This document shows, piece after piece, positions 32,061 to 49,949 of a stretch of DNA of 60,755 bases (positions are counted from its first letter, which is position 1; every line of letters starts with the position of its first letter). The notes below the pieces were generated by a model. It ran no database searches and was not told the DNA's origin. It saw only the letters and a list, made by a program, of their open reading frames with translations. Position numbers and translations under genes: made by a program. The stretch covers positions 1 to 60,755 of the forward strand of contig CAIKTR010000055.1 in NCBI GenBank assembly GCA_903830425.1, in the 5' to 3' direction. This DNA is from an uncultured Opitutia bacterium (GTDB taxonomy: Bacteria; Verrucomicrobiota; Verrucomicrobiia; Opitutales; Opitutaceae).

Positions 32061-33155
32061 TCAGTTCAGGCGGATCGACTTCGTCTCCTCGACGAGGGCG
32101 AGGATGTTCTCAAACGGGACGTCGGGCTCCAGCACGTGCGTCGGGGCGATCATCACCCGCGCCCCGTGGTCGCGGTGGAGCGCGGCGATCTCCTGGACGC
32201 GCCGGCGGACATCGGCGGGCGTGCCGAAGGGCATCGTGGTCTGCGTGCCGACCATGCCGCTGAGGCCGAGCTGGCGGCCATAGCGGCGCGTGAGCTCGTC
32301 GGCGCTCATGCACTCCGGCTGCACCGGATTGAGGATGTCGACGCCGACCTCGATCAGCTCCTCGACGATCGGCATGATGTCGCCATCCGAATGGTAGTGC
32401 ACCCAGACCTTGCGGTTGCCGGAGGCCTCGCGGATGGCCGCGATGACCTTGGCGAGGCGGGGCTTGAGGTGCTTCCGCCACATTGGGACGGAGAGCATCA
32501 TGCCGGTCTGCATGCCGACGTCGTCGCCGAGGCCGATGATGTCAATACCAGCCCGGGCAAACTCGCGGCCGACGTGGCAGGAGCGCTCGGTGAAATAATC
32601 GAGCAGCCAGTCGGCGATGCCGTTGCCCTCGGCGAGATCCTGGAAAAGGTTGTCCATCCCGCGGACGTACCAGGAAAGCTCGAAGGTGGTGCACTCCATG
32701 CCCGCGAACGCGACTTTGCCGCGCGTGTGCACCTGCTCCATTTTCCGCCGGAGGGCGGCGTAGTGCCGGGAGTCGGAGGTGTCGGGCCAGGGGAGTTTTT
32801 CCAGCTGCGCGACGCTGGTGATGACCTCCAGCGGGTGCAGCATGACGCGGAAGTGGTAGGCCTTGCCCACGGTGCCCGCGGGCGGGGCGACGTGCGCGAC
32901 GCAGAAGGGCCCGAGCTCGACGTCCTTGGGGAAGCGGTAGCCGAGGTCGGTGAGCGCGGCGTGCCAGCGCTGCGGGTCCTCGTTGTACCCGACCCACTCG
33001 AAGCCAAAGTCCGTCTCGAACGCCAGTTCCGAGCTGCGGATGCCGGTGCGCTCCTCGATCAGGTCGGCGACCGGGGGCGTGACGGGCAGGTTGAGCGGTA
33101 GCCACGCCGGGCCGGTGCCGGCCATCATGGCGTGGAAATTTTCGCGGGCGTTCAT
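32061..33155 (-). CDS. URO-D-like putative methyltransferase, HxHSDG type
   Basis: A 364-aa URO-D superfamily protein, last gene of the minus-strand methyltransferase operon. LGDDVGMQTGMMLSVPMW is the substrate-loop motif. At the zinc-site position it has VHYHSDGDIMP rather than HxCG, followed by DILNPVQPE and, late, APTHVLEPDVPFENILAL. The third cysteine of MtaA is absent (GMVGTQTTMPFGTPADV). The ATG at 33155 overlaps the upstream homocysteine methyltransferase by 4 nt, so translation is coupled. Interpretation as MT I acting with the shared corrinoid protein is inference. Confidence 0.75.
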   Translation of the reverse strand: MNARENFHAMMAGTGPAWLPLNLPVTPPVADLIEERTGIRSSELAFETDFGFEWVGYNEDPQRWHAALTDLGYRFPKDVELGPFCVAHVAPPAGTVGKAYHFRVMLHPLEVITSVAQLEKLPWPDTSDSRHYAALRRKMEQVHTRGKVAFAGMECTTFELSWYVRGMDNLFQDLAEGNGIADWLLDYFTERSCHVGREFARAGIDIIGLGDDVGMQTGMMLSVPMWRKHLKPRLAKVIAAIREASGNRKVWVHYHSDGDIMPIVEELIEVGVDILNPVQPECMSADELTRRYGRQLGLSGMVGTQTTMPFGTPADVRRRVQEIAALHRDHGARVMIAPTHVLEPDVPFENILALVEETKSIRLN

Positions 33156-34048
33156 CGTTTGAGTCGGGCGGCCAGCGCGGCGATGTGCTCGGGGGTGCTG
33201 CCGCAGCAGCCGCCCACGAGGCGCGCCCCGGCGGCGAGGAAGCGCGCGCCCGCGGCGGCGAAATCCGCCGGCGTGGTGGCGTAGTGAATCTGGCCGTTGA
33301 CGAGCTGGGGCGAGCCGGCGTTGGGCTGCACGATCACGGGCGTGGAGCCGGCGGCGGCCACCAGTTCGGCGGTGAGCTTTTCGTAGTCGGCGAGCGAGAC
33401 CTCGGTGCCGCAGTTGGCCCCGACGACGTCGGCCCCGGCGGCGAGCACCGCGGCGACGCACTCGGCGGCCGTGTTGCCCATCATGGTGGCGAAGCCGCTG
33501 GACGCCTGCTGAAAGGCATAGGTGGCGATCACCAGCCCGGCCCCGGCCGCCTTGGCGGCCTGCACCGCGAGCGCGGCCTCGGCGGGATCGGACATGGTCT
33601 CGATCAGGATCCCGTCGGCGCCGCCCTCGAGCAGCGCGGCGGCCTGCTCGCGAAACGCGGCATTCACCTCGTCCGGCAGGCCTTCGCCCAGCGGCTCCAG
33701 CATGCCGCCGTAGGGGCCGATGTCACCCAGCACCCAGGCCCGGTCGCCGGCGACGGCGCGGGCGAGCCGGGCGGCGGCGGCGTTGATCTCGCGGACGCGC
33801 GCCCCGGCCCCGTGGCCGGCGAGCACGTAGGAGGTGCCGCCGAAGGAATTGGTCGTCAGCAGGTCGGCGCCGGCGCCGAGGTAGTGGCGGTGGACCTGCT
33901 GCACCCGCTCGGGCTGTTCGAGGCACCAGAGCTCGCCGCAGGCCCCGGGCGCGAGCCCGAGGAGATGCAGCTGCGTGCCCGTGGCGCCGTCGCACAGGAG
34001 CGGCCGACGGGCGAGTTCCTGGCGAAGGGCGGCGGTGCGCAGGTTCAT
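33152..34048 (-). CDS. Homocysteine S-methyltransferase
   Basis: A 298-aa cobalamin-independent-type homocysteine methyltransferase domain protein, like BhmT/MmuM or the MetH N-terminus. It opens LLCDGATGTQLHLLGL and has the zinc ligands C213 (GANCGTE) and C281/C282 (VGGCCGSTPEHIAAL). It is embedded in the URO-D operon, with 4-nt overlaps on both sides. It could take methyl groups from the corrinoid protein or methyl-THF to make methionine, or donate them. It is the second such domain in the window, the other being in the fusion at 30126. Confidence 0.87.
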   Translation of the reverse strand: MNLRTAALRQELARRPLLCDGATGTQLHLLGLAPGACGELWCLEQPERVQQVHRHYLGAGADLLTTNSFGGTSYVLAGHGAGARVREINAAAARLARAVAGDRAWVLGDIGPYGGMLEPLGEGLPDEVNAAFREQAAALLEGGADGILIETMSDPAEAALAVQAAKAAGAGLVIATYAFQQASSGFATMMGNTAAECVAAVLAAGADVVGANCGTEVSLADYEKLTAELVAAAGSTPVIVQPNAGSPQLVNGQIHYATTPADFAAAGARFLAAGARLVGGCCGSTPEHIAALAARLKR

Positions 34049-35130
34049 GTCGAGAGGGAGTGGACGGTGTCGAGAAACTCGGTGGCGCGGCCGGCGTTGG
34101 GGAACGGGGTGCCCACCGAGATCCACATGCCATCGGGGCCCAGTTCGCGCAGGACCGTCAGGGCGTCGTCCGCGTCCTCGGCGAGCACCTGGATGGCCTT
34201 GCCCGCCTGCCGGATGGTCCGGAAGGTCTCGAGCCACCGGGCGGCCGGGCCGTGCCCCGCGCCAAAGACCCATTGCACGGCGTTCAGCCGCGGCAGCTGC
34301 AGCATGAGGTCGACGTGATGGAGGGCCTGGGGACCGTCGAGGTGGAAGATCGTCCGCTCCAGCGGGGCCATTTCCAGCTCGATCGTCGGGCGGATGAGGT
34401 CCGCGGCGATTTCCCGGGACACGAGGCACCAGAAGTCGCAGCTCGGCACGTAGGCCGTCCCGGTGTGCAGGTAATTGCACCACGTGGTGCTCGGCTGGCC
34501 CAGCGCGGTCAGCCGCTGGTACAGCCGGCGGTAGGCCTCCACGTAGCCGTGGGTGGCGTGCAGGCTGGCGCGCCGCACCAGCTCGGGCTCGTCCACAATG
34601 TCGAGGCACAGGTCTTCGGGCCCGCGCAGGCCGGCCAGGATGTCGAAGCTCCCGTGCAGGTCGGGCATGGCGACGTAGTAGCGCCCGGCAAAGCGCTCCG
34701 CCGCGCGCGTGATCATCGCGTCAATCGTCCGCCAGTAGAGGTTGTCGAAGTCCGGCGGGGTGGCGATGAAGCGCTCCCAGTCGGCGGTCTCCGGCACGGT
34801 GTGCTGGCACCAGCTGGTGTTCTCGCCGAAGACGAGCTCGGCGCCGAACAGCGTCGAGGTGAGGTCGGGGCCGACGTTGGGCGTCCAGGACGGCACGGTG
34901 TCGCCCAGGGCAGGGGAGGCCTCCAGGCCGGCCAAGGCGGACTCGACCTGGAAGTCCACGTCGAGCCAGCGTTCGCGCAGGGTGGCGTGGGTGGAGCGCG
35001 GCGCCCGCGGGGAGTGCTTGGTTTCCACCCAGAGGCTGACAGGCGGACGGTCCAGCCGGCCGCCCTGCCACCAGGCCTCGAACCGCGCGTGGGCCGCCGC
35101 CGGGGTGAAGTAGTGATTGCGCGGGTTCAT
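34045..35130 (-). CDS. URO-D-like putative methyltransferase, FHLDG type
   Basis: A divergent 361-aa URO-D-superfamily relative. It begins YFTPAAAHARFEAWWQGGRLDRPPV, a start used by a subgroup of COG0407 proteins. At the metal-site position it has IFHLDGPQALHH; downstream it carries WVFGAGHGPA and IQVLAEDADDA, with no HxC...C pattern. PSCDFWCLVS is the equivalent of the substrate-loop motif. Its frame overlaps the homocysteine methyltransferase start by 4 nt. Its enzymatic status as a methyltransferase is less certain than for the HxCG copies. Confidence 0.68.
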   Translation of the reverse strand: MNPRNHYFTPAAAHARFEAWWQGGRLDRPPVSLWVETKHSPRAPRSTHATLRERWLDVDFQVESALAGLEASPALGDTVPSWTPNVGPDLTSTLFGAELVFGENTSWCQHTVPETADWERFIATPPDFDNLYWRTIDAMITRAAERFAGRYYVAMPDLHGSFDILAGLRGPEDLCLDIVDEPELVRRASLHATHGYVEAYRRLYQRLTALGQPSTTWCNYLHTGTAYVPSCDFWCLVSREIAADLIRPTIELEMAPLERTIFHLDGPQALHHVDLMLQLPRLNAVQWVFGAGHGPAARWLETFRTIRQAGKAIQVLAEDADDALTVLRELGPDGMWISVGTPFPNAGRATEFLDTVHSLST

Positions 35131-35143
35131 GCGACCGTCCGGC

Positions 35144-36403
35144 TCAGGCGGTGGCGCCGTTGAAGTCGCGGATCGCGTCCACCATGGCGACGATGTTGGC
35201 CACCGGGGTGCGGGCCTGGATGTTGTGAATCGTGTTGAACACGAAGCCGCCGCCGGGCGAAAAGGCGCGCAGGCGCGCGGTGACCTCCGCGCGGACGTCG
35301 GCCGGCGTGCCGAAGGGCAGCGTGCGCTGCGTGTCCACGCCGCCGCCCCAGAACACGATGCGGTCGCCGAAGTCGGCCTTGAGGCGCCCGGGGTCCATGT
35401 CCTTGGCGGAGCACTGCACCGGATTGAGGATGTCGAACCCGACGTCGATGAACCGGTCGATCAGCGGCCGGACCGCGCCGCAGGAATGCTTGAAGGTTTT
35501 CCACGTCGTGTGGCGGTGGATCCAGTCGTTGACCCGGCGGTAGTAGGGCGCGAAGAGCTCGTCGAAGGTCGCGACCGAGCAGAACTGCGAGTTCTGCGTG
35601 CCGAAATCGGTGCCGCAGATGGTGAGCACGTCGATGCGGTCGCCCGCGAGGGCGGCGAAGGTCTCCAGGTTCTGCAGCGCGACCTCGCACTGGTACTCGA
35701 AGATCCGGTGGACGTAGTCGCGGCGCTCCACCAGGGAGATGTACCACTCGCCGACGTCGCGGATGCCCTTCGGATGCTTGAGAAACGCCGCCGGCACCAG
35801 GGCGATGTCGCCGAACCCCGTGCCGCCGATGCCGGAAACGATGCCGCGCGTCTCGCCCTGCAGGCGGGCAAACTCCCGCCGCCAGTGGTCCACGTCGGCG
35901 GCGCCGAGCGGCTTGAACTCCTCGCAGTTGTCCCGGGGGTTGAGCCGGTCCTCGTCGATCGGCTCCTGGCGCACGATGGCGTCGAAGAAATAGCCGCCGG
36001 CGGGCAGGTGGCCGCTGGGCGGGACGGAGGTGTCGCCCTCCGGGAAAAGATAGACGTCGCCGCCGGCTTCCTCGCGGGTCCGGAAGCCCTCCGGCACCAG
36101 CACCGGCTGGCCCCACGGCGTCCGCCACTCGTGCCAGCCCTCGTTGGCAAAGCCGAACATGGTGCCGCGGCCGTTGGCGCCGACGCAGTCGGAACCGAGG
36201 GCGCGGGCCAGGTCGTCCTCGACCTCGCCGAGCATCTGGTAGGGTTCGCAGACCTTGACCGGGTGCCGCGGCAGACCGTAGTGGTCGCGCAGCGCGGCGA
36301 CGCAGCTCACGTGCAGGCTGGTGAGGCCGGTGCTCCCGAAATCGACCGGCACCGGGCCGGATTGGTGGGCGAGCGCCCGGCGGACTTTTTCTCGGGAGGT
36401 CAT
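35144..36403 (-). CDS. URO-D/MtaA-like putative methyltransferase, HxCG type
   Basis: A 419-aa URO-D superfamily protein starting MTSREKVRRALAHQSGPVPVDF. It has the zinc motif HxCG in TFKHSCGAVRPL, preceded by ICGTDFGTQNSQFCS. The third-ligand position, where the lone copy at 15107 has Cys (GGGCD), reads WGGGVDTQR, so Cys is replaced by Val; another residue may complete the site. It ends SPGGGFVFNTIHNIQARTPVANI, similar to the 15107 copy, so these two are near relatives. It is in the minus-strand operon 13 bp upstream of the FHLDG-type gene. Confidence 0.75.
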   Translation of the reverse strand: MTSREKVRRALAHQSGPVPVDFGSTGLTSLHVSCVAALRDHYGLPRHPVKVCEPYQMLGEVEDDLARALGSDCVGANGRGTMFGFANEGWHEWRTPWGQPVLVPEGFRTREEAGGDVYLFPEGDTSVPPSGHLPAGGYFFDAIVRQEPIDEDRLNPRDNCEEFKPLGAADVDHWRREFARLQGETRGIVSGIGGTGFGDIALVPAAFLKHPKGIRDVGEWYISLVERRDYVHRIFEYQCEVALQNLETFAALAGDRIDVLTICGTDFGTQNSQFCSVATFDELFAPYYRRVNDWIHRHTTWKTFKHSCGAVRPLIDRFIDVGFDILNPVQCSAKDMDPGRLKADFGDRIVFWGGGVDTQRTLPFGTPADVRAEVTARLRAFSPGGGFVFNTIHNIQARTPVANIVAMVDAIRDFNGATA

Positions 36404-36449
36404 GCGGCGGGGGAGGGGAGAGGGCAGGAGCCGAAGGACCCGGAGGGGC

Positions 36450-37580
36450 TCAGCCCTGCAGGCCGAAAAGTTTTTCCTTCAGGTCGAGGTAGTAGAGGTA
36501 GTCGCCGGGATCGACGTTGGGCGGGCAGCGGTGGTCGCAGAAGGGGATGAAGCCGCCCTGGGCCACGTACGGGGCGAGCGACTCGAGCCATTTGCGGATC
36601 TCGGGACGGCTGCGGCCGAGGACCATCTTGTCCACGCCGCCCATGATGCGCAGTTCCGGGCCCCAGCGGTCGAGCGACTCGCCCGGATGGCCGGAACCGT
36701 TGACCTCCCAGGGAAACATCGTGTTCACCCCGCCCGCCAGAAAGTGGGGGATGAGCGGCCGCACGTCGCCGTCGCAGTCGATCCACCAGATGTCCACGCC
36801 GTGCGCGCGGAGCTTCGCGCTGATCCGCTTATACCGGGGCACGACCACATCGCGGAAAAAGGCGACCGAAACGAGAGGGCCGCTCTTGTAGCAGATGTCC
36901 TCCCAGCCGGCGGCGTAGTCGAACTGGACATGGGGCAGGACGGCGTCGAGGAAGTCCTCCACCAGGACGCACGAGGTCTCGACCATGTCCTCGACCATCT
37001 CGGGATAATCGTAGGTCGCGTAGGCCAGGCCCTCGACGGTCAGCATGTCGCGCACCTTGCCGATCATGGAACCGGCCCAGACCCCGAGGGGATAGTCGCG
37101 GTCGGCCGGATGGTCGCGGCGGATGGCGGCGAGGTCCGGCTTGCGGATGGGGTGGTCGCGGTTGAAGCGCTCGGCCTTCACCCGGACCCAGTCGTCGGGC
37201 GTCTTGACCGTCGCCTCGAGGTAGTGGGGGATGGTGTCATGGCCGTCGAGCGGCACCTCGGCGATCAGCCCGTCGCCGTTGCGCAGGATGCGGGTGGTGG
37301 CGGTGCGGGAGATCTCCTCCTCCGAGAAGCCGGGATACATCCAGTGCGACCAGACGTTGGCCGTGCGGTCGAAGTTCAGGAAAACGTCGGCGTCGTTGTT
37401 GTTGGTGATGCCGTGGTCGCGGAACATCGGCCAGATCTTGAAGTTGTCGTCCCAGTAGCCGAACTCCATGTTGAAGCAGCGGTCCACGGGCTCGCGGCGC
37501 ATCGTCCGCCGGAAGCGCTCGCGGTCGGTCAGGGTGCCCCGCCACTTCGGACGGAAAGGTTGGATGGCAGGCGGATTCAT
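36450..37580 (-). CDS. URO-D-like putative methyltransferase, DxDG type
   Basis: A 376-aa URO-D-like protein with the Asp/His signature shared by the 1902, 46574 and 48831 copies: GWEDICYKSGPLVS, then WWIDCDGDVRPLIP in place of HxCG, then IMGGVDKMVLG and FIPFCDHRCPPNV. The N-terminus (DRERFRRTMRREPVDRCFNMEFGYWDDNF) is the usual start. The strongly acidic metal-site substitutions are conserved across the four copies and unlikely to be decay. It is in the operon, 6 bp after the stop of the 37587 gene. Confidence 0.75.
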   Translation of the reverse strand: MNPPAIQPFRPKWRGTLTDRERFRRTMRREPVDRCFNMEFGYWDDNFKIWPMFRDHGITNNNDADVFLNFDRTANVWSHWMYPGFSEEEISRTATTRILRNGDGLIAEVPLDGHDTIPHYLEATVKTPDDWVRVKAERFNRDHPIRKPDLAAIRRDHPADRDYPLGVWAGSMIGKVRDMLTVEGLAYATYDYPEMVEDMVETSCVLVEDFLDAVLPHVQFDYAAGWEDICYKSGPLVSVAFFRDVVVPRYKRISAKLRAHGVDIWWIDCDGDVRPLIPHFLAGGVNTMFPWEVNGSGHPGESLDRWGPELRIMGGVDKMVLGRSRPEIRKWLESLAPYVAQGGFIPFCDHRCPPNVDPGDYLYYLDLKEKLFGLQG

Positions 37581-37586
37581 AGAAAA

Positions 37587-38672
37587 TCAGTAGGTGCCGT
37601 AGCGTTCCACGAAACCGATGATGGCCTGGTAGGTCTTCCAGCTCACTTGCGGCGGCACGGAGTGGTCCGAGTGGTAGGCGTAGCCGCGCGTGGCCATGCC
37701 GGCGGCGAACTTGACGCGGATTTCCTCTTCGATGAGGCCGAGGTCGTTGGTCGCCATCTTCATGACGTCGATGTTGCCGAACATCGCCAGGCGGTCGCCG
37801 TGCGTCGGGGCGAAGTCGCGGATGTCCATGCCGGCCTTGGCCTCGATCGGCTGGAGGCACTCGAAGCCGGCTGCGATGTAGAGGTCGAGCACGCCGCTGA
37901 CGCGGCCGTCGGTGTGATAGATGACCTTCATCCCGTGCGCGTGGGCCCAGTCGGCCATGCGCTTGTGGGCCGGCCAGACGAGCTCGCGGTACATCGCCGG
38001 CGAGCACATGGTGGCGTGGTTGTAGGCCATGTCGCCGTAGATCCAGAGGCCGTCGGGGGCGACGCCCTCCGCCAGCACGCCCTCGAAGGAGCGCAGCACG
38101 ATGTCGGTGTGGACCCGGACGATGTCGCGGACCCATTCGGGGTCCTCGATCATGGCGATGAGGCAGGCCTCGTCGCCGATCAGCCGGCGAAGCGCCTCGA
38201 AACCCTCGACGCCGGCCAGATGGTTCCATTTCCCGCAGGCGCGGCCCTCGTGATAGCGCAGGGCGGCGAGCTGGGGGTTGATTTCATTGGCCGCGGCGAG
38301 CATGGCCGGCCGGTAGGTCTTTTCCCAGGCCTCCCGGGAGTCGCAGCCGAAGCTGATGTGCTCCGGCGTGCCGGAGCGCCCCTTCCAGAAGCGGGCGACG
38401 CCGCCCCAGGCATCCCGCACCGTCTCGGTCTCGGCATCCTGGCTGAGCACCACGCGCTGGCCGGGAAACGCCGACGGCCAGGACCAGCAGAGCGTCTGGA
38501 AGTCGGCGCCCAGCAGCCGGAGCGCGTCAGCCTGGTCCCACTGCAGCCCCTCGCGCTGCCAGCGGGCGATCGTCTCCGGCCAATACGCATCGTGCCGCGG
38601 CACGCGGTCCTGATCCTGCCGCGCGAACATACGGTTCACGCGTTCGCACCCGGTCATGGATGTGGTTTTCAT
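37587..38672 (-). CDS. URO-D-like putative methyltransferase, HTDG type
   Basis: A 361-aa URO-D-like protein, first methyltransferase gene downstream of the corrinoid protein gene (36 bp gap). Motifs: IYGDMAYNHATMCSP (substrate loop), VIYHTDGRVSGVLD at the metal site, MFGNIDVMKMA and YAYHSDHSVPPQVSW near the C-terminus. It combines the His of the HxCG class with the Asp and late DH of the DxDG class, so it looks intermediate. Position right behind the corrinoid protein makes it the best candidate for the ancestral partner enzyme of that protein. Confidence 0.75.
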   Translation of the reverse strand: MKTTSMTGCERVNRMFARQDQDRVPRHDAYWPETIARWQREGLQWDQADALRLLGADFQTLCWSWPSAFPGQRVVLSQDAETETVRDAWGGVARFWKGRSGTPEHISFGCDSREAWEKTYRPAMLAAANEINPQLAALRYHEGRACGKWNHLAGVEGFEALRRLIGDEACLIAMIEDPEWVRDIVRVHTDIVLRSFEGVLAEGVAPDGLWIYGDMAYNHATMCSPAMYRELVWPAHKRMADWAHAHGMKVIYHTDGRVSGVLDLYIAAGFECLQPIEAKAGMDIRDFAPTHGDRLAMFGNIDVMKMATNDLGLIEEEIRVKFAAGMATRGYAYHSDHSVPPQVSWKTYQAIIGFVERYGTY

Positions 38673-38708
38673 GTCGGCACCCCATGGCCGCCGGGGAGCG
38701 GTGGCCGG

Positions 38709-39347
38709 TTAGGCCGCCTCGCCTACCAGTCGCTTGGCGACGTCCACCGCCGTACCGGCGTCGGCGGCATAGCCGTCGGCCCCGATGTCGTCCGCGAACG
38801 CCTGCGTGATCGGCGCGCCGCCGATCATGATCTTCATGTTGGGCAGGCCCGCCGCCTTGAGGATGCGCACCGTCTCCTTCATGGCCGGCATGGTCGTCGT
38901 CAACAGAGCGGAAAGCCCGATGATGTTCGCCTTGTGCTCCTGCGCCGCCGCGAGATAGCGCTCCGGGCTCACATTGGTGCCCAGGTCGACCACCGCGAAG
39001 TTCGCCCCGCGCCACATCATGGAAATGAGGTTCTTGCCGATGTCGTGCAGGTCCCCCTGCACGGTGCCGATCAGCGCCGTGTACTTCGGCTTGATGCCCG
39101 CGGTGGCGAGCAGCGGCTCCAGAATCTTCAGCGCCTCCTTCATGGCGCGAGCGGCGACGAGCATCTCCGGGACGAAGATCTCATTGCGCTTAAACTGGTC
39201 GCCAACAATTGCCATACCGGGCACCAGGCCCTTTTCGACAATCGCCTCGGGGCCGATTCCGGCTGCGAGAAGTTCCTGGGTAATCCGCACGGTGTCGGTT
39301 CTTTTCCCGGCGGCCACGGCTGCGGTCAGATCAGTGAGTTGGGGCAT
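38709..39347 (-). CDS. Corrinoid protein, MtaC/MtvC-like
   Basis: The methyl-carrying cobalamin protein of the system. The 212-aa protein has an N-terminal helical cap domain (~1-85, LVPGMAIVGDQFKRNEIFVPEML) and a C-terminal Rossmann-like B12 domain with the base-off/His-on motif DLHDIG (H101 as lower cobalt ligand), LSALLTTTMPAMKE (S146, L148) and MIGGAPITQ. Length matches MtaC, MtbC, MttC and O-demethylase corrinoid proteins. It is the only corrinoid protein among 14 URO-D-like genes in the window. It heads the seven-gene minus-strand operon, divergent from the DUF1638/activator genes. A 15-bp inverted repeat lies 10 bp upstream of its ATG. Confidence 0.93.
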   Translation of the reverse strand: MPQLTDLTAAVAAGKRTDTVRITQELLAAGIGPEAIVEKGLVPGMAIVGDQFKRNEIFVPEMLVAARAMKEALKILEPLLATAGIKPKYTALIGTVQGDLHDIGKNLISMMWRGANFAVVDLGTNVSPERYLAAAQEHKANIIGLSALLTTTMPAMKETVRILKAAGLPNMKIMIGGAPITQAFADDIGADGYAADAGTAVDVAKRLVGEAA

Positions 39348-39356
39348 GATGTTGTT

Positions 39357-39371: not shown

Positions 39372-39407
39372 CCGTTGAAGTAAATGCGAAGACTGTCAAT
39401 TGTCCCC

Positions 39408-41927: not shown

Positions 41928-42962
41928 ATGAGCGCCACCCCCCGCGAGATTGTGCACCGCACCCTCGAATTCGCCCGGCCGCCCCGCGCGGCCCGCGACC
42001 TGTGGGTCCTGCCCATTGCCTCCGAGCGGCACCCGGCGGCGCTCCAGGAGATCCTGCGCGAGTTTCCCTCGGACTTCGCCGCCATCGGCGGCCACGAGCG
42101 CGCGATCGCCCCCACCCGCGGCTCCCCCTACCTCGAGGGCGAGTTCACCGACGAGTGGGGCTGCACCTTCGTCAACATCCAGCGCGGCGTCATCGGCGAG
42201 GTGAAGCACCCGCAGGTCGCCGACTGGGCCACCGACACCGGGCGCATCCACGTCCCCCGCGAGTGGCTGACGCTGGATCGCGACGCGGTGAACCGCGACT
42301 GCGCCGCCACCTCCCTGTTCACCCTGGCCGCCCCGTGCCCCCGGCCGTTTGAGCAGCTCCAGTTCATCCGCGGCTCGGAAAACCTCTACCTCGACCTCGC
42401 GGACCCGCCGCCGGAGCTGCTCGCGTTCATGCGCCAGCTGCACGCCTTCTACTGCGAGGTGCTGGAGGCGTGGGCGCGGACCGACGTGGACGCGCTCCGC
42501 ATGATGGACGACTGGGGCTCGCAGCGCGCGCTGCTGATCGCGCCGCGGCTCTGGCGCGAGCTCTTCAAGCCGATGTACCGGGACTACGCCCAGATCGCGC
42601 ACGCCCACGGCAAGAAGCTGTTCCTGCACTCCGACGGCCACATCGCCGCCATCTATCCCGACCTCGTCGAGATCGGCCTGGACGCCGTGAACTCCCAGCT
42701 GTTCTGCATGGGCATCGAGGCCCTCGCGCCCTTTGCCGGCCAGATCACCTTCTGGGGCGAGATCGACCGCCAGCACCTGCTGTCCGAGGGCACCCCCGCC
42801 GACATCACCCGCGCCGTCGGCGACGTCCACCGCCAGCTCTGGCGCGACGGCGGCTGCATCGCGCAGTGCGAGTTCGGCGCCGCCGCGCGGCCCGAGAACG
42901 TCCACGCGGTCTACGCCGCCTGGGACCGGCTCACGCTCGCCCCCACCGGAGGCCGGCCATGA
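41928..42962 (+). CDS. URO-D-like putative methyltransferase, HSDG type
   Basis: A 344-aa URO-D-like protein 39 bp after the activator gene. It carries MMDDWGSQRALLIAP (substrate loop), LFLHSDGHIAAIYP at the metal site, NSQLFCMGI, TFWGEIDRQHLL and AQCEFGAAARPENV. HSDG pairs it with the copy at 32061. The ATG at 41928 is preceded by no good Shine-Dalgarno, common in this window. Its end overlaps the next gene by 4 nt (ATGA), so the pair is co-translated and may form a complex. Confidence 0.75.
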   Translation: MSATPREIVHRTLEFARPPRAARDLWVLPIASERHPAALQEILREFPSDFAAIGGHERAIAPTRGSPYLEGEFTDEWGCTFVNIQRGVIGEVKHPQVADWATDTGRIHVPREWLTLDRDAVNRDCAATSLFTLAAPCPRPFEQLQFIRGSENLYLDLADPPPELLAFMRQLHAFYCEVLEAWARTDVDALRMMDDWGSQRALLIAPRLWRELFKPMYRDYAQIAHAHGKKLFLHSDGHIAAIYPDLVEIGLDAVNSQLFCMGIEALAPFAGQITFWGEIDRQHLLSEGTPADITRAVGDVHRQLWRDGGCIAQCEFGAAARPENVHAVYAAWDRLTLAPTGGRP

Positions 42963-44221
42963 CCCCCGACGCCACCCTGTCCCCCGCCGACCGCGACATC
43001 CTGCGCGGCCTGGTCGAGGAGTATGCCGCCATCGCCGCCCTCCCGGTGCACCGGGAGAAGGCGCGGCTGTGGACCAAGCTCAACGACCTCCGCAGCGAGC
43101 GGCCGATGATCTGGATCACCGAGGTGCCCTGGCACGAGTTCAGCGCGGACGTGCCGGAGCTCGTCACCCGCTGCACCGCCACCTGGGCGCGCAACCTCGA
43201 GAACGACCTGCGCCGCCAGCTCTACCAGTGGCGGCACCTGCCGGGGGACATGATCTTCAACGACTACGTGCCGTGCCCGATCGCCTACCGCAGCACGAGC
43301 TTCGGCCTCGTCCGCCAGGGCGAGCTGCTGCCCATCACCGTCGGCGGCATCACCTCGCAGCACTACGAGCCGCAGATCTCGTGCCTGGCCGACCTGGCCA
43401 AGATCAAGGACCCGGTGGTGACGGTGGACCGGGCCGACACCGCCGCGCGGCTGGCGGCGATGCGCGACGCCTTCGGCGACCTCCTGCCGGTGCGCGAGCA
43501 GGGGCGCGACAACTACTGGTTCACGCCCTGGGACAACCTGGTGATGTGGTACGGCGTGCAGGAGGCCCTGACCGACCTCATCGAGCAGCCCGAGGTGATC
43601 AACGCCGCCATCGAGCGGCTGGTGGACTGCTACCTGCTCGAGCTCGATCAGATGGTGGCGCACAACCTCCTCGCGCTGAACACCACCAACTGCCGCATCG
43701 GCTCCGGGGCCTACGGCTACTCGACCCAGCTGCCGGGCGCCGGCTTCAATCCCGCGCACCCGACCCCGCAGCACCTCTGGGGCTGCTCCAACGCCCAGAT
43801 CTTCACCGAGGTCTCCCCCGAGATGCACTGGGAGTTCGCGCTCCGGCACGACCAGCGGTGGCTCGCGCGCTGGGGGCTCAACTACTACGGCTGCTGCGAG
43901 GTGCTCGACACCAAGATGGAGATCCTCCGCCGGATCCCCAATCTCCGGAAGGTGTCGATGAACTACCGCATCCGTCTCGAGCGCGCCGCCCAGGCTGTCG
44001 GCGCCGACTACGTCTTCAGCTACAAGCCCAACCCCGCGTGCTTCGCGACCGACCACTGGGACCTGCCCAAGGCCCGCGCCGAGCTGCGCCAGCTGCTCGA
44101 CTGCACCCAGGGCGGGCACGTCGAGATCGTGCTCAAGGACATCTCCACCGTCGCCCGCCAGCCGCAGCGGCTGTGGGAGTGGGCGGCGATGGCCACCGAG
44201 CTCGTGGAGGGCCGGGAATGA
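42959..44221 (+). CDS. URO-D-related putative methyltransferase, YGCCE type
   Basis: A 420-aa protein of a divergent URO-D/cobalamin-independent MetE-like subgroup. It has a ~100-residue N-terminal extension (ILRGLVEEYAAIAALPVHREKARLW) and, at the metal site, LNYYGCCEVLDTKMEILRRI, giving a Cys-Cys-Glu rather than HxCG. The C-terminus reads VFSYKPNPACFATDHWD and HVEIVLKDISTV. Similar proteins are common in anaerobic gut and sediment bacteria and are annotated as uroporphyrinogen decarboxylase. It is translationally coupled to the preceding HSDG-type gene. Substrate unknown. Confidence 0.72.
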   Translation: MTPDATLSPADRDILRGLVEEYAAIAALPVHREKARLWTKLNDLRSERPMIWITEVPWHEFSADVPELVTRCTATWARNLENDLRRQLYQWRHLPGDMIFNDYVPCPIAYRSTSFGLVRQGELLPITVGGITSQHYEPQISCLADLAKIKDPVVTVDRADTAARLAAMRDAFGDLLPVREQGRDNYWFTPWDNLVMWYGVQEALTDLIEQPEVINAAIERLVDCYLLELDQMVAHNLLALNTTNCRIGSGAYGYSTQLPGAGFNPAHPTPQHLWGCSNAQIFTEVSPEMHWEFALRHDQRWLARWGLNYYGCCEVLDTKMEILRRIPNLRKVSMNYRIRLERAAQAVGADYVFSYKPNPACFATDHWDLPKARAELRQLLDCTQGGHVEIVLKDISTVARQPQRLWEWAAMATELVEGRE

Positions 44222-44253
44222 GGTCGGGGCTTGCCGCGGCCGGCTGGTCCGCC

Positions 44254-45297
44254 CTACCGGGGGCCGCAGTCCTCCGGCCGGTGGTCCCGGGCGTAGGCGA
44301 GCATCGCGCGCAGGTTCTCCGGCGGGGTCAGCGGCGAGATCTCGCAGCCCGCGCCGACAATGTAGTAGCGGCCGCAGATTTCATGGCAGCGCCGGCAGGC
44401 CGCGTAGACCTGCTCCGGGGTGCCCTCGAACAGGTCGGTGATGGTGGAGACGTTGCCGGCGAGCACGCGGGTCGGCCCGAGCAGGCTGCGCGCGAGCGTC
44501 AGGTTGGCGGGAAAGTCGATCTCGTAGATGTCGATCGGCAGCTCGGCCATCTTCGGGTAGAGCCGGTCGATGCGGCCGCACATGTGCTGCCGCAGCAGCA
44601 CGTCCGGGTGGCGCTGGCGGATCGCCGCCAGCACCCGCTGCTGCTGGGGCCAGAGGAACTTCTCATACAGGGTGGGGCCGATCAGGCCCGCCGCCGCGTC
44701 GCTCATGCCGATGGTGTCCGCGCCGGCCGCGATCTGCGCCGGGGCGTAGGCAATCGCCACGTCGGCGCAGAAGGCCAGCAGGTCGTGCGCGAATTGCGGG
44801 TCGTCCCCAAAGTCCAGCATGATGGCGTTCAGGCCCCGCAGCTCGGCGGCGAGGGCCAGCGGGCCCTCGATCCAGCCGACGATGGACATGCCCGGGCCGG
44901 CCGCGCGGCGCATCTGCTCGATGCTCTTCACGCGGTCGTGCATCCGGCCCCCGCCCAGCGGGTCGGGCACCTGGAACGTCCGCAGCCGCAGCTTGTCCGC
45001 CAGCGCCGCGCGGTCCTCGTTGATCGCCGGCCCCTGGTCGGTGAACCAGTCCACGCTCCCCTCGCCGGCGATGTCGATCACCTCGCGCGCCGGGTCCGAG
45101 CAGGTGAGCAGGCAGTCGAGCCCGAAGTCCGCCACGAGCTTGAGCTGCGCCTCGGCCATCTTCCGCCCGTCCTTGGTGTAGTCGATGAACGGGATGCCCG
45201 CGTGCCGGGACGAAAACATCATCGCCATGGGTTGCGCCGGCAGGTGGTCCACCGCCTCGCCGCGGATCACGCGGCGGACACGTTCAATCGAGGTCAT
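44254..45297 (-). CDS. MtaA-like methylcobamide methyltransferase, full HxC...C site
   Basis: A 347-aa protein and the most canonical MtaA/CmuA-type enzyme here: zinc ligands H238 and C240 (LRQHMCGRIDRLYP) and C318 (VGAGCEISPLTPPENLRAM), matching the HxC...C set of methylcobalamin:coenzyme M methyltransferases. GWIEGPLALAAELRG is another family motif. Taken start is the ATG at 45297; a GTG lies one codon earlier. It is the only minus-strand gene between two plus-strand runs and is divergent from the 45369 gene with a 71-bp gap. As bacteria normally lack coenzyme M, another thiol or homocysteine is likelier as acceptor. Confidence 0.82.
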   Translation of the reverse strand: MTSIERVRRVIRGEAVDHLPAQPMAMMFSSRHAGIPFIDYTKDGRKMAEAQLKLVADFGLDCLLTCSDPAREVIDIAGEGSVDWFTDQGPAINEDRAALADKLRLRTFQVPDPLGGGRMHDRVKSIEQMRRAAGPGMSIVGWIEGPLALAAELRGLNAIMLDFGDDPQFAHDLLAFCADVAIAYAPAQIAAGADTIGMSDAAAGLIGPTLYEKFLWPQQQRVLAAIRQRHPDVLLRQHMCGRIDRLYPKMAELPIDIYEIDFPANLTLARSLLGPTRVLAGNVSTITDLFEGTPEQVYAACRRCHEICGRYYIVGAGCEISPLTPPENLRAMLAYARDHRPEDCGPR

Positions 45298-45368
45298 CAC
45301 AGCGTCATGCTCGGCGCCGGCGCCGAAATCAACCCTCGGCTGCAGCCTTCTCTCCGCATTTTTTGTCC

Positions 45369-46532
45369 ATGAAGACCCTGTCCCCCAAGCAACGCCTCGT
45401 CGCCGCCCTCGATCGCCAGCCGCTCGACCACCTCCCCGTCACGACGCATCACCTCATGCGCTCCTACCTGGATAAACATTTTCCGGGCCAGACCGCCGAC
45501 GAATTTTTCGCCCACTTCGGGCTCGACCCCATCTGCTGGACGGTGGCGCACCGGCCCGCGCCCGGCTCCGGCGCCGAGTTTGAGCCGGGGCACACCCCGG
45601 GCTTCCTCGAGGCGCGGCGCCTCACGTCCGCCACCTGGCGCTTCGAGCACGAGGACGTGCCCGGCCGGGAATACGCCACCGTGCGCCACCGCATCGTCAC
45701 CCCGCGCGGCACGCTGAGCCTCGAGCTGCAGAGCAACGAGTACACCGCCTGGGTCTCCGAGCGCCTGCTCAAGCAGAAGTCCGACATCGACCTCATCGCC
45801 GAGTACGCGCCGCAGCCGCTCTGCGACGTCGACGCCATCAACCGCTGCGCCGACGCCTACGGCGACACCGCGCTGATCCGCGGCCACATCAACTGCTTCG
45901 ACCTCTACGGCCAGCCCGGCTGCTGGCAGGACGCCTGCGTGCTCTACGGCGTCGAGGAGATGATCCTCGCCACCTACGACGACCCGGCCTGGGTGCACAC
46001 CTTCCTCGGCATCCTCCGCGACCGCAAGGTGCGCTACGCCGACTCGATGCGGGGCGCGCGCTACGACCTGATCGAGCACGGCGGCGGCGACGCCTCCTCC
46101 ACCGTCATCTCCCCGCGGGTGTTCGACGAGTTCGTCGCCCCCTACGACCGCGCGGTCATCGCCCACGCCCGCGCGGCCGGCCAGCGCGTGGCCTACCACA
46201 CCTGCGGCGGCATGATGCCGATCCTGGAGCGGCTGGCCGGGCTCGGGGCCAACGCCCTCGAGACCTTCACCCCGCCCGCGATGGGCGGCGACCTGAACCT
46301 GGCCGAGGCCAAGCGGCGCATCGGCGACCAGGTCTGCTTCATCGGCGGCTTCGACCAGAACCGCTTCTTCACCACCTCCACCCCCGAGGAGACCCGCGCC
46401 GAGGTCCGCCGCTGCTTCGCCGAGGCCGGCGCCGGCGGCGGCTTCATCCTCAGCCCCTCGGACCACTTCTTCGAGGCCAAGCCCGAGCTCCTCCACGCCT
46501 TCGCCGACGAGGCCCGCCGCTGTACCTACTGA
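45369..46532 (+). CDS. URO-D/MtaA-like putative methyltransferase, HTCG type
   Basis: A 387-aa URO-D-like protein with HxCG intact (VAYHTCGGMMPILE), but the third cysteine region reads LSPSDHFFEAKPELLHAF, so the last ligand is probably Asp or His. Other motifs: EHGGGDASSTVISP, CFIGGFDQNRFF. It starts at the ATG at 45369; a TTG two codons earlier is unlikely. First of a plus-strand run of five genes (45369 to 51164) with short gaps, divergent from the MtaA-like gene at 44254. Confidence 0.75.
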   Translation: MKTLSPKQRLVAALDRQPLDHLPVTTHHLMRSYLDKHFPGQTADEFFAHFGLDPICWTVAHRPAPGSGAEFEPGHTPGFLEARRLTSATWRFEHEDVPGREYATVRHRIVTPRGTLSLELQSNEYTAWVSERLLKQKSDIDLIAEYAPQPLCDVDAINRCADAYGDTALIRGHINCFDLYGQPGCWQDACVLYGVEEMILATYDDPAWVHTFLGILRDRKVRYADSMRGARYDLIEHGGGDASSTVISPRVFDEFVAPYDRAVIAHARAAGQRVAYHTCGGMMPILERLAGLGANALETFTPPAMGGDLNLAEAKRRIGDQVCFIGGFDQNRFFTTSTPEETRAEVRRCFAEAGAGGGFILSPSDHFFEAKPELLHAFADEARRCTY

Positions 46533-46573
46533 CCGTCCCGCCGGCCCCGTCCCTCCCGTAACCTCCTCTTTCC

Positions 46574-47701
46574 ATGACACCACTCGATCGCTTCCACGCC
46601 TGCATGAATTACCAGCCCGTCGACCGGGTGCCCAACCACGAGGTGGGCGTCTGGGCCCAGACCAAGCAGCGCTGGCACGAGGAGGGGCTCGCCACCGAGG
46701 ACCTCCACTGGGACTGGTTCGTCGGCGAGGCCCGCTGGGACCTGGACCCGCGCGAATACGTCGACGTCCGCACCGACATGGTCCCGCCCTATCCGGTCAA
46801 GGTCCTCAGCCGCGACGGCGACACCGAGATCGTCCAGGGCGCCAACGGCGTCATCTCCAAGGCCCTCATCACCGGCACGACCGAGGGCATGCGCATGAGC
46901 ATGGACGAGTACATCAGCTTCCCCGTGTCGACACCCGCGGACTTCCAGGAGCTGAAAAAGCGCTTCCGCCCGTCCTCGCCGGTCCGCTATCCGGCCTACT
47001 GGCAGGAGTTCCTGCTGCCCGGCTGGGGCCTGCGCCAGCACCCGCTGATCCTCGGCCGGAACTGCGCCATCCTCGGCTACTACTGGCGGGCCCGCGAGTG
47101 GATGGGCACGGAGAACCTCAGCTACGCCTGGTACGACGAGCCCGCGATGATGCACGAGATGATGGAGTTCATCACCGACTTCACCATCGAGACGCTGCGG
47201 CCGATCCTGGCCGCCGGCGTGAAGCCCGACTACATTTTCATCAACGAGGACCTGAGCATGAAGAACGGCCCGCTGCTCAGCCCCGCCACCTACCAGGAGT
47301 TCATCTTCCCGCAGCTGAAGCGGCTGGTCGCCTTCCTCAAGTCCGCCGGCGTCCGCTGGGTGATCATCGACACCGACGGCAACTGCGAGCTGGTCCTCCC
47401 GCCCTTCCTTGCGGCCGGGGTCGACGGCATCTGGCCGCTGGAGCGCGCCTCGGACATGGACCCGCTGGCGATCCGGAAGAAGTTCGGCCGCGACCTGCGG
47501 CTGTGGGGCGCGGTCGACAAGCGCGAGCTGGCGAAGGACTTCAACGCGATCGACGCCCACCTGCGCACGCTGCAGCCGCTCATCGCCGAGGGCGGCTTCA
47601 TCCCCTCGGTCGACCACCTCGTGCCCCCCGACGTGTCGCTGGCGAACTTCGAGCACTACATGCGCCGCAAGCACCAGCTGCTCCGCGGCGAGGCCTTCTG
47701 A
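46574..47701 (+). CDS. URO-D-like putative methyltransferase, DxDG type
   Basis: A 375-aa URO-D-like protein starting MTPLDRFHACMNYQPVDRVPN. It has FINEDLSMKNGPLLSP, then WVIIDTDGNCELVLP at the metal site, LWGAVDKRELA and FIPSVDHLVPPDV. This is the Asp/His signature also found at 1902, 36450 and 48831. It lies 41 bp after the 45369 gene and 13 bp before the next, all on the plus strand. Confidence 0.75.
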   Translation: MTPLDRFHACMNYQPVDRVPNHEVGVWAQTKQRWHEEGLATEDLHWDWFVGEARWDLDPREYVDVRTDMVPPYPVKVLSRDGDTEIVQGANGVISKALITGTTEGMRMSMDEYISFPVSTPADFQELKKRFRPSSPVRYPAYWQEFLLPGWGLRQHPLILGRNCAILGYYWRAREWMGTENLSYAWYDEPAMMHEMMEFITDFTIETLRPILAAGVKPDYIFINEDLSMKNGPLLSPATYQEFIFPQLKRLVAFLKSAGVRWVIIDTDGNCELVLPPFLAAGVDGIWPLERASDMDPLAIRKKFGRDLRLWGAVDKRELAKDFNAIDAHLRTLQPLIAEGGFIPSVDHLVPPDVSLANFEHYMRRKHQLLRGEAF

Positions 47702-47714
47702 GCATCCCCCCACC

Positions 47715-48761
47715 ATGAGCCGCCAACTTGCCCTCGATACGCTCGCGCTGAAGTCCGTCCCGCGGTTTGCCCGCACCGAGTACAGCCTCGAATATCACCA
47801 AGCCGGCCTGCGGTCCGCCACCGGCCCGGTGCCGGACGCCGCCGCCGCGCAGCGCGACCTCTACGCGCGCTGGGGGCTGGATTTCCTCTGGACCGTGCAG
47901 GACGGCCTGCGCGGCGACTGGGGGCAGTGGGGCCGCAACACCGACATGGGCCACGCCGAGTACGCCTCCGACGGCAGCGACCTCCGGAAGCCCAACCACT
48001 GCCCGTTCGAGACGGTGGAGGAGGTCTGGGCCTTTGACGCCGTCACCGAGTACGGCCTGCCCACGATGGCCGAGCAGGTCGCGGCCTACGAGGAGTGGCT
48101 GGCGCAGAAGCGCCGGGACTTCCCCGAGCAGCTCTGCCCCGGGGGCTATTACAAGACCATCGTGTCCGGCGCCATCCAGGCCTTTGGCTGGGACATGCTG
48201 CTGGAGGCCGCAGCCGACCGCGACAAGATGGAGCCGGTGTTCGACAGCTTTTTCCGCCGCACCCAGTTCCACATGGACGCCTGGGCCCGGACCAGCGCCG
48301 AGGCCATCATCCAGCACGACGACTTCGTGTGGACCGCGGGGGCCTTCATGCGGCCCGAGATCTACCGCTCGGTGATCATCCCGCGCTACGCCGAGCTGTG
48401 GAAGCCGCTCAAGCGCGCCGGCAAGAAGGTGCTGTTCTGCTCCGACGGCGACTTCCGCGAGTTCGCCGCCGACATCGTGGCGGCGGGCGCGGACGGGCTG
48501 ATCTTCGAGCCCGTGATGGAGTTCGGCGAGATGGTGGAAAAATTCGGCCAGACCACCGTGCTCGTCGGCAGCGCCGTGGACTGCCGCGACCTGACCTTCG
48601 GGACGTGGGACACGGTGCGCGCGGCGCTCGACCGCTCCCTCGCCCTCGCGCGGACGTGCCCCGGCGTGATCCTCGCCACGGGCAACCACCTCCCCGCCAA
48701 CATCCCCGCGCCGATCCTCGAGCAGTACCGCGCCTACCTCCAGGCCCACCGCGGCCGCTGA
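47715..48761 (+). CDS. URO-D-like putative methyltransferase, CSDG type
   Basis: A 348-aa URO-D-like protein. HDDFVWTAGAFMRP is the substrate-loop motif, LFCSDGDFREFAAD the metal-site segment (Cys in place of His), VGSAVDCRDLTFG and ILATGNHLPANIPAPIL follow. The C/D combination is unlike any other copy in the window. The ATG at 47715 follows the stop of the previous gene by 13 bp; the longer open frame reaching back to 47409 overlaps that gene and is rejected. Function as methyltransferase is inferred from context. Confidence 0.72.
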   Translation: MSRQLALDTLALKSVPRFARTEYSLEYHQAGLRSATGPVPDAAAAQRDLYARWGLDFLWTVQDGLRGDWGQWGRNTDMGHAEYASDGSDLRKPNHCPFETVEEVWAFDAVTEYGLPTMAEQVAAYEEWLAQKRRDFPEQLCPGGYYKTIVSGAIQAFGWDMLLEAAADRDKMEPVFDSFFRRTQFHMDAWARTSAEAIIQHDDFVWTAGAFMRPEIYRSVIIPRYAELWKPLKRAGKKVLFCSDGDFREFAADIVAAGADGLIFEPVMEFGEMVEKFGQTTVLVGSAVDCRDLTFGTWDTVRAALDRSLALARTCPGVILATGNHLPANIPAPILEQYRAYLQAHRGR

Positions 48762-48830
48762 GCCCAAGCCGCCAAATCTTCGTGCCCTGGGCCTCCCCGC
48801 CGGGTTAACTCCTCTCCCCCTCCCTACACC

Positions 48831-49949
48831 ATGCGCTGGAACCGTGAACAATACCTGAACATGATGACCTTCGGCGCCTCCCCGCGTCCGATGTTCACCG
48901 AGTTGTTTGGCCCGCTCGTGGGGCTGGACGCCGAATGGCGCGCGCAGGGCGCGTCCGAGGCGGAGATCGGCATGGTCGCCTTCGACTGGGACTACGTGCC
49001 CACGGTCTTTTGCGGCGGCTACACGCACATCCAGGGCCCGCCGCCGGTGCTGCTGGAGGACACCGCCGACCTGCGCCGCGAGCGCGACTGCCTCGGCCGC
49101 GAGATGCTGCTGCTGAAGAAGACCGCCACCATCCCGCTCCCGATGAACTTCCCGGTCCAGAACATGGACGACTGGCTCCGGGTGAAGCCCTTCTTCACCT
49201 TCAGCCCCGACCGCATCAAGTGGGCCGAGGTCGAGGCCGCCCGCCGCGCGCAGGCCGAGGGCAGCCTGGTGGTGGCCCACATGCCCGGCGTGTTCGACAC
49301 GCCCCGCGACCTGATGGGCGAGGAGATCGCCTGCCTCGCGTACTACGAGCAGCCCGAGCTGATGGCCGACATCGTCGCCACCATCACCGACACGACCATG
49401 CGGGTGCTCGAGCCGATCAGCGAAAAGCTCCAGATCGACCAGCTGATGGTGCACGAGGACTTCGCCGGCAAATCCGGCCCGCTGGTCGGCCCGGTGCAGA
49501 TCCGCGAATACTTCCAGCCCTACTACCGCAAGGTCTGGGACCTCGTCTCGTCCCGCGGCGCCCGCATTTTCGAGCAGGACACGGACGGCAACATCAACCC
49601 GGTCATCTCCGCGCTCCTCGACTGCGGGCTCACCAGCATCTACCCGATGGAGCCGGCGGCCGGCATGGACATCGTCGAGCTGCGGCGGACCTATGGGAAG
49701 CGCCTCGCGATGCGCGGCGGCATCGACAAGCACGTGCTGCGGCAGGACCGCGCCGCCATCCGGCGCGAGCTCGAGTACAAGCTGGACCCCGCGCTGCGCG
49801 CCGGCGGCTGCGTCTTCAGCCTCGACCACCGCATTCCCAACGGCACCCCCCTGGAAAACTACCGCTATTACGTCACCCTCGGCCGGGAAATGCTCGGCCT
49901 CCCGCCGCTGGACCCCTCCCGCACCGGCTGGGCCCGCATGGCGATGTAG
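48831..49949 (+). CDS. URO-D-like putative methyltransferase, DxDG type
   Basis: A 372-aa URO-D-like protein starting MRWNREQYLNMMTFG. Motifs: VHEDFAGKSGPLVGP, IFEQDTDGNINPVIS at the metal site, AMRGGIDKHVLR and FSLDHRIPNGTPLEN. It shares the DxDG/DH signature with 1902, 36450 and 46574. It is the last URO-D-like gene of the cluster; a GDSL hydrolase follows 90 bp later on the same strand. Confidence 0.75.
   Translation: MRWNREQYLNMMTFGASPRPMFTELFGPLVGLDAEWRAQGASEAEIGMVAFDWDYVPTVFCGGYTHIQGPPPVLLEDTADLRRERDCLGREMLLLKKTATIPLPMNFPVQNMDDWLRVKPFFTFSPDRIKWAEVEAARRAQAEGSLVVAHMPGVFDTPRDLMGEEIACLAYYEQPELMADIVATITDTTMRVLEPISEKLQIDQLMVHEDFAGKSGPLVGPVQIREYFQPYYRKVWDLVSSRGARIFEQDTDGNINPVISALLDCGLTSIYPMEPAAGMDIVELRRTYGKRLAMRGGIDKHVLRQDRAAIRRELEYKLDPALRAGGCVFSLDHRIPNGTPLENYRYYVTLGREMLGLPPLDPSRTGWARMAM

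Follow-up and report, generated by a model that had tools for sequence, protein, structure and literature searches.

A probable many-to-one corrinoid methyl-transfer system built around a twelve-gene URO-D array in an Opitutaceae genome

A 60,755-nucleotide stretch of DNA from an uncultured Opitutia bacterium (the window; contig C55 of genome G000, an assembly of 3.5 Mb in 254 contigs with a listed completeness of 95%) contains, between positions 32061 and 49949, genes for twelve diverged proteins of the uroporphyrinogen decarboxylase (URO-D) superfamily, one stand-alone corrinoid protein (CP), one RACo-type activator and one DUF1638 protein. We consider it probable that these genes encode an aerobic-type corrinoid methyl-transfer system in which many methyltransferase I (MT I) enzymes load a single carrier and one-carbon (C1) units flow into oxidation. 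Comparative genomics gives the many-to-one wiring good support; we infer the direction of flow, each enzyme's use of the carrier and all of the substrates, for which methylated plant or algal sugars are a guess from context. A preliminary description of this DNA had reported twelve distinct URO-D-superfamily genes within 18 kb, one corrinoid protein gene with a DLHDIG motif, one RACo-like activator with cysteines 42, 48, 51 and 80, a DUF1638 gene and a probable verrucomicrobial host, and our searches recovered each of these. Indeed, the nearest named relatives of the CP (86-90% identity) come from metagenome-assembled genomes titled Opitutaceae, Opitutae, Cephaloticoccus or Verrucomicrobia (L046-L053). 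That inventory was sound for the parts of the array and omitted a methyltransferase II (MT II) gene at 26188-27051, a homocysteine S-methyltransferase gene at 33152-34048 and two further URO-D genes at 1902-2990 and 15125-16336.

The imbalance between donor-side candidates and carriers extends over the whole genome. A search with PF01208 gave 46 matches in G000, one being HemE on contig C59 and 45 being non-HemE; the latter comprise 12 in the window (10 of them in the array) and 33 on other contigs, some of which are fragments at contig ends. PF02310 matched just three proteins, namely the CP, MetH and a protein on contig C88, and the CP is the sole stand-alone corrinoid protein among these B12-binding matches. 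The C88 gene (L033:1402-2355, minus strand) encodes a CarH-like regulator with MerR-type helix-turn-helix, cap and B12-binding domains; it was ruled out as a second carrier, the MerR domain preceding the cap and B12 domains within its 317-aa frame. The preliminary view of one carrier loaded by many MT I enzymes thus stands in that many candidates face a single CP and a single activator genome-wide, but the array proved to be only part of the candidate set. Equal numbers of corrinoid proteins elsewhere, which that description had raised as a possible objection, were not found, the other two B12-binding matches being MetH and the MerR-type regulator. Similarly, a relative listed as 100% complete (G001) has 28 URO-D matches and two B12-binding matches, the CP and one whose 740-aa frame has a pterin match as well. 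A second run of six URO-D homologues occupies contig C184 of G000 (L140:1-8183), where no carrier gene was seen, and one URO-D copy, on contig C122, was missed by the gene caller.

Comparison across the genus, represented by 12 genomes (G000 and relatives G001-G011), ties the URO-D genes to the carrier. A stand-alone CP is present in nine of the 12, each of which has exactly one RACo, a divergent MT II (PF00809; a fragment in G005 and on a different contig in G011) and between 11 and at least 46 URO-D matches. G000 and G011 both reach at least 40 in this count, and G011 gave 63 first-look candidates. In the three genomes without a CP (G002, G006 and G008), RACo and the divergent MT II are both missing, and the sole URO-D is HemE-like. 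The chance of such a 9/3 split is 1/220 if the genomes were independent, which they are not. Since the paralogues scattered over many contigs vanish together with the CP, the simplest reading is that most of them depend on the CP system. The 31 PF02310 matches in the 12 genomes divide into nine CPs, 11 probable MetH proteins (assigned by a MetH-type pterin match on the same contig, with a Pfam scan on C133 alone), eight MeaB fusions, one radical-SAM protein, one MerR protein and one weak match (G008:C36) that was left outside the classification. The ten that were scanned, that is the MeaB fusions, the radical-SAM protein and the MerR protein, were ruled out as hidden carriers. The fusions of MeaB GTPase and B12-binding domain (L173-L176 and L178-L181) occur in eight genus genomes with or without the array, including G002 and G008, and none was found in G000.

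The array itself is strongly conserved. Each of the seven relatives mapped (G001, G003, G004, G007, G009, G010 and G011) has all twelve genes, with order and relative orientation unchanged and orthologue identities of 73-93%; G005, a fragmented assembly, lay outside this mapping. Among the loci of the named CP relatives, L053 holds all twelve genes, L050 is cut and L051 is without two. The median dN/dS of the twelve ranges from 0.16 to 0.29 (CP, 0.14; activator, 0.19), and the twelve genes are under purifying selection. Given the retained order and these ratios, the array is not a chance assembly. Recent tandem amplification of the whole array was likewise ruled out: in a tree of 101 rows, built by a quick method with SH-aLRT support only and containing several long branches, the twelve members stand far apart, eleven pair with their L049 orthologue, and the twelfth (48831, whose orthologue lies outside L049) pairs with an accessory paralogue. 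In fact, 48831, 35144 and 45369 all have close accessory paralogues elsewhere in G000.

The coupling is also seen in a sample of 387 genomes of the phylum, in which the best five or so URO-D matches were scored per genome. RACo is present in 140 of these; 110 of the RACo-positive genomes have three or more URO-Ds, as against six of the 247 RACo-negative ones (Fisher p ~5e-60, shared ancestry ignored). All 46 genomes listed with at least 20 loose URO-D candidates are RACo-positive; their PF02607 matches, a count that lumps the CP with MetH and others, number one, two, three and four in 22, 15, 6 and 3 genomes, respectively. Many-to-one wiring looks common in the phylum, as judged from such gene counts. 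Larger fan-in candidates are G318, G173, G208, G404 and G378, which have 63 to 74 loose URO-D candidates each and one to three PF02607 matches. Outside the phylum, homologues of the array protein at 37587 adjoin the CP in Armatimonadota and Planctomycetota loci (L097 and L109) at 55-61% identity. The gene caller had been trained on the GC-rich window and yielded few gene calls or none on L060, L106, L116 (49% GC) and L121, so that URO-D counts in other taxa are lower bounds.

The twelve array proteins, numbered here as MT I candidates in order of position, flank the hub gene on both sides. On the minus strand lie candidate 1 (32061-33155; HSDG motif; PF01208 E 9e-20; orthologues in relatives), candidate 2 (34045-35130), candidate 3 (35144-36403; HSCG; E 1e-13), candidate 4 (36450-37580; DCDG; E 3e-5, marginally under the cut-off at 23.7 versus 23.9 bits), candidate 5 (37587-38672; PF01208), which adjoins the CP, and candidate 8 (44254-45300). 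The plus strand carries candidate 6 (41928-42962; HSDG; E 1e-10), candidate 7 (42959-44221), candidate 9 (45363-46532; HTCG; E 8e-23), candidate 10 (46574-47701; DTDG; E 6e-18), candidate 11 (47715-48761; CSDG; E 1e-8) and candidate 12 (48831-49949; DTDG; E 8e-12). Ten of the twelve are matched by PF01208, candidate 4 included, and the remaining two are remote members: 34045 and 42959 have no Pfam or NCBIfam match, and were aligned by hhalign to a profile of the window's own URO-Ds at 95.6% (E 1e-8) and 89.0% (E 2e-6), respectively. For 34045 there are intermediate homologues elsewhere in G000, and its position is conserved. For 42959, the most divergent member, the top 24 Foldseek rows are all URO-D-superfamily chains (22 decarboxylase and two MtaA chains), weak support given TM-scores of just 0.34-0.49 and a low-confidence model (mean pLDDT 59.7).

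By contrast, 37587 gave a confident model (pLDDT 94.0, pTM 0.90), which scored Z 25 to 26.9 against HemE structures, 24.9-25.0 against MtaA and no more than 16.3 against B12-independent methionine synthases; its modelled fold clearly places it in the URO-D superfamily. An alignment of 21 of its relatives has E168, D214, E277, D336 and H337 among the invariant columns. CdmB was not among the matches listed from Foldseek or VIA, which says nothing on its distance. A profile built from the window's members retrieved 53 proteins at E ≤1 in the fetched loci, 51 of them at least 250 aa long (at least one of these, L149, is cut at the N-terminus). The motif RQAGR, which we take to be the N-terminal substrate-binding motif of HemE uroporphyrinogen decarboxylase, is present in one of the 51, HemE itself on C59, and the array members were thereby ruled out as HemE paralogues. 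Candidate 8 is closest to the MtaA/CmuA family: it scores 148.6 bits against TIGR01463 (cut-off 235.4) and aligns with MtaA (4ay7, E 1e-20), retaining the H-x-C...C motif, presumably the zinc ligands of that family. Scores of 27.6-57.8 bits were obtained for 32061, 35144, 37587, 45363 and 46574, and no TIGR01463 match was listed for 36450, 41928, 47715, 48831, 34045 or 42959. At the position of the first cysteine of this motif, seven of the twelve have Asp and three Cys, while the unaligned sequence of 34045 shows a comparable HLDG; of the 51 homologues, 23 read x-x-D-G, 18 read H-x-C-G and the other 10 fit neither pattern. Asp at this position would suit non-thiol donors.

The remaining parts of a demethylation system are encoded alongside. 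The hub CP (38709-39347, minus) combines a cap domain (PF02607) with a B12 domain (PF02310) and has D-x-H-x-x-G as DLHDIG at residue 99; its best NCBIfam match is MtgC_2 (194 bits, under the cut-off of 370), and its solved relatives are 1y80 and the tri- and monomethylamine corrinoid proteins. Divergently placed are the DUF1638 protein (39520-40260, plus; PF07796 E 1.4e-35), a presumed partner in corrinoid reactivation, and the activator (40257-41888, plus), which has the RACo middle and C-terminal domains (PF14574 and PF17651) over cut-off and the four cysteines at 42, 48, 51 and 80. Its Fer2 match is under the Pfam cut-off, the NCBIfam cut-offs of AcsV and RamA were missed, and its solved relative at E 9e-81 is 3zyy, listed as an iron-sulfur cluster binding protein and, we presume, RACo. 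Upstream of the array a plus-strand C1 block encodes, in order, a methylenetetrahydrofolate reductase (MTHFR; MetF) with a MetV-like DUF5981 C-terminal domain (24510-26126; PF02219 and PF12225), the MeTr-like methyl-corrinoid:tetrahydrofolate methyltransferase MT II (26188-27051; PF00809), a formate-tetrahydrofolate ligase (27084-28769; PF01268 E 9e-273, PRK13505 above cut-off), a major facilitator superfamily transporter that may import a substrate (28769-30133; PF07690) and a fusion of homocysteine S-methyltransferase and MTHFR (30126-32048; PF02574 and PF02219). MetF/MetV adjoins MT II in five mapped relatives. The best NCBIfam match of MT II is PRK07535 (109 bits, under the cut-off of 259) and its solved relatives are 4o0q, labelled DHPS (E 4e-15), and then MeTr 2yci (E 1.5e-14); the assignment as MT II instead of another pterin enzyme is a best match, drawn from sequence and co-occurrence. 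Within the array lies another homocysteine S-methyltransferase (33152-34048, minus; PF02574 E 3.5e-65). Because contig C133 of G000 carries a split MetH whose domains cover homocysteine, pterin, B12 and activation, both homocysteine methyltransferases are additional to it.

The preliminary description had set these genes in the frame of acetogen O-demethylation, which had to be given up. CODH/ACS (PF03598) was found in none of 12 genomes (nine of the genus and three of the order) by a search that detects it in two methanogen controls, and heme-copper oxidases are present in all 12. An acetogen was therefore ruled out, and oxidation is likelier than acetogenesis. In the mechanism that we propose, the URO-D-fold enzymes, twelve in the core array and some thirty more scattered, would each bind one type of methylated substrate and transfer its methyl group onto the cob(I)amide of the one common CP. 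Whenever the cobalt becomes oxidised to Co(II), the activator together with DUF1638 would re-reduce the carrier. The single MT II would pass the methyl group from the CP to tetrahydrofolate, MetF/MetV would oxidise the methyl-tetrahydrofolate, and formate-tetrahydrofolate ligase working in reverse would yield formate and ATP. The two homocysteine methyltransferases might use some methyl groups directly for methionine, and the C1 units would finally be oxidised and not turned into acetate. In its widest form the proposal is tentative: the roughly 45 to 50 non-HemE URO-Ds of G000, and likewise the sets in dozens of Verrucomicrobiota, could possibly all be substrate-specific methyltransferases converging on one CP in oxygen-respiring polysaccharide degraders, where they would remove and oxidise the O-methyl groups of sugars and sugar acids (for example 4-O-methylglucuronate, given a copy beside mannonate dehydratase).

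Several observations weigh against the proposed system. HemE and MtaA score alike for the 37587 model, so methyl transfer is not decided by fold, and the MtaA-type zinc motif is clearly retained only by candidate 8. The CP, the activator, MT II and 44254 all fall under NCBIfam cut-offs, so that each stands at some distance from the named families. With G000 at 95% completeness, a second carrier could be missing from the assembly. Several accessory URO-D homologues are very divergent, with long branches in the tree, and may serve other functions. In the phylum sample, 30 of the 140 RACo-positive genomes hold fewer than three URO-Ds and six RACo-negative genomes hold at least three, the largest set being the 19 candidates of G244; and as genomes share ancestry, their co-occurrence is not independent evidence.

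Some of these points fit a narrower reading, which we regard as unlikely, in which 37587 and a few near neighbours are true MT I enzymes and most of the others act as lyases, decarboxylases or hydrolases and are carried along on the same catabolic islands. The array members are deeply divergent (16-25% identity to the first alignment row), the CP-adjacent homologues in other phyla are of few kinds, and several accessory members sit on long branches; but the dispersed paralogues, too, are absent from the three carrier-less genomes, URO-D and RACo genes are coupled across the phylum, and the order of the twelve genes is fixed. A system chiefly for methionine synthesis, with donor methyl groups passed to homocysteine by the extra methyltransferases, is very unlikely. 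Its precedent would be the MtgCDE-type split methionine synthase: in Phaeobacter, according to the accessible text of the genetic study, a DUF1638 protein and a RamA-like protein are required with a split methionine synthase (PMC5764234), and the locus does have two homocysteine methyltransferase genes and a CP whose best NCBIfam match is MtgC. The split MetH on C133, however, has homocysteine and activation domains of its own, and the homocysteine methyltransferase genes of the locus were not found in G001 and G003, where the URO-D array persists.

MetF/MetV and formate-tetrahydrofolate ligase are compatible with either direction of flow, and the reverse can be imagined: formate would be converted to methyl-tetrahydrofolate, MT II would load the CP, and the URO-D enzymes would methylate thiols or other acceptors. 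The resemblance of 44254 to MtaA/CmuA, with its H-x-C...C motif, suits such a scheme, as does the proposal that methyl-sulfur or methyl-selenide compounds are the substrates of type 1 mlp gene clusters (PMC10418091). Yet H-x-C followed by a later Cys occurs in only eight of the 51 homologues and two of the twelve array members, and so many acceptors for one donor would be hard to account for; we hold this reverse flow to be very improbable.

Our literature search, on URO-D, corrinoid and O-demethylation in Verrucomicrobia and Planctomycetes and with subscription literature mostly outside it, returned no published description of such many-to-one wiring, in agreement with the earlier impression that an array of this kind around a single carrier is undescribed; nor does it appear in the accessible portions of PMC11264602, PMC10805028 and PMC7857596. 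The acetogen ether demethylase and Cdm systems (MtvB, OdmB, VdmB and CdmB) are alike in having four parts (MT I, corrinoid protein, MT II and activator), a URO-D-fold MT I and many paralogues. They differ in that G000 combines 45 non-HemE URO-Ds with one carrier and one stand-alone MT II, whereas the CdmB study, as far as its accessible text goes, used 20 CdmB paralogues as queries, apparently from Acetobacterium dehalogenans, along with 13 MT II paralogues (PMC13222342); moreover, the host here has heme-copper oxidases and no CODH/ACS match. MtgBCDE of aerobic marine bacteria, in the available part of its description, shares with our locus a common carrier (serving up to seven MtgB-family genes), DUF1638, RamA, a pterin-binding MT II, a homocysteine methyltransferase and oxidative C1 flow in an aerobe (PMC12478193). 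Its MT I, however, belongs to the MTTB family (PF06253) and not to the URO-D superfamily; no PF06253 match was found among the twelve array proteins, the rest of the genome lying outside that search. The fan-in here is several times larger, and the genome retains MetH as a separate enzyme. Type 1 mlp gene clusters, which are characterised by orthologues of both Mlp2 and Mlp3, likewise join several URO-D-superfamily genes to one corrinoid protein and one activator, and are described, in the text available, as having two or three Mlps near coenzyme M methyltransferases, in obligate anaerobes and with no folate methylase in the cluster (PMC10418091); the present locus differs by its twelve array genes, its MT II and the oxidases of its host. 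Finally, 44254 aligns with MtaA and CmuA, but all scanned candidates fall under the TIGR01463 cut-off, and CmuA unites MT I and corrinoid protein in one chain according to the accessible text of PMC13222342. Among the published cases considered here, the 20 CdmB paralogues (PMC13222342) come nearest in number, and the marine system, whose one carrier serves as many as seven MTTB-family genes, comes nearest in logic.

Other genes of the window were also annotated. An AraC-type protein (23461-24255, plus; PF12833/PF00165) precedes the C1 block and is a candidate regulator of the locus by position only; no Rfam cobalamin riboswitch family reached threshold within the window. A GDSL/SGNH hydrolase (50040-51164, plus; PF13472) follows the array, which it also adjoins in G003, G004, G007, G009, G010 and G011 but not in G001; it may release, or act on, a methylated substrate. 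Beyond it lie one enolase-superfamily (MR_MLE) gene (52742-53917) and one aldo/keto reductase gene (54020-54979). Two accessory URO-D homologues stand outside the array, both on the plus strand: 15125-16336 (PF01208), which groups with an accessory paralogue in the tree, and 1902-2990 (PF01208 match at C55:2418-2939). At 929-4073 an ABC permease, a URO-D homologue and a Gfo/Idh/MocA oxidoreductase are encoded consecutively, in the manner of a sugar-catabolism locus.

Some accessory URO-D genes on other contigs have notable neighbours. Behind a URO-D gene on C50 (L135:9980-13984) come a second MetF/MetV and a GCV_T-domain gene; in the loci of five relatives that hold this URO-D, chosen by URO-D score, MetF/MetV is adjacent in all five and GCV_T is present in four, and the C50 protein groups loosely with CmuA in the tree (support 80). 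On C201 (L134:14575-18451) a URO-D gene directly follows mannonate dehydratase near altronate hydrolase, a pair with mannonate dehydratase that recurs in G011, and on C234 two URO-D genes stand beside a RhaT-type symporter. The 40 genes scanned near accessory URO-Ds include mannonate dehydratase, altronate hydrolase, RhaT, sugar transporters, GH38 and GH57 together with unrelated secretion, repair and signalling genes, and with no background rate for comparison these hints to substrates are only suggestive.

Corrinoid-dependent demethylation has mostly been regarded as a chemistry of anaerobes in which each carrier is served by a single donor enzyme or by a few. If some 45-50 enzymes do converge on one CP, the fan-in onto a B12 carrier would be wider than any yet known. 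If one carrier can serve twelve or more dissimilar enzymes, the genus would offer a natural set-up for studying how a B12 domain recognises many partners, and the large unannotated sets of URO-D-family genes in Verrucomicrobiota would be accounted for. The system would then provide these bacteria with a demethylation route that leads, perhaps from plant or algal carbohydrates, to formate, CO2 or methionine, and not to acetate or methane.

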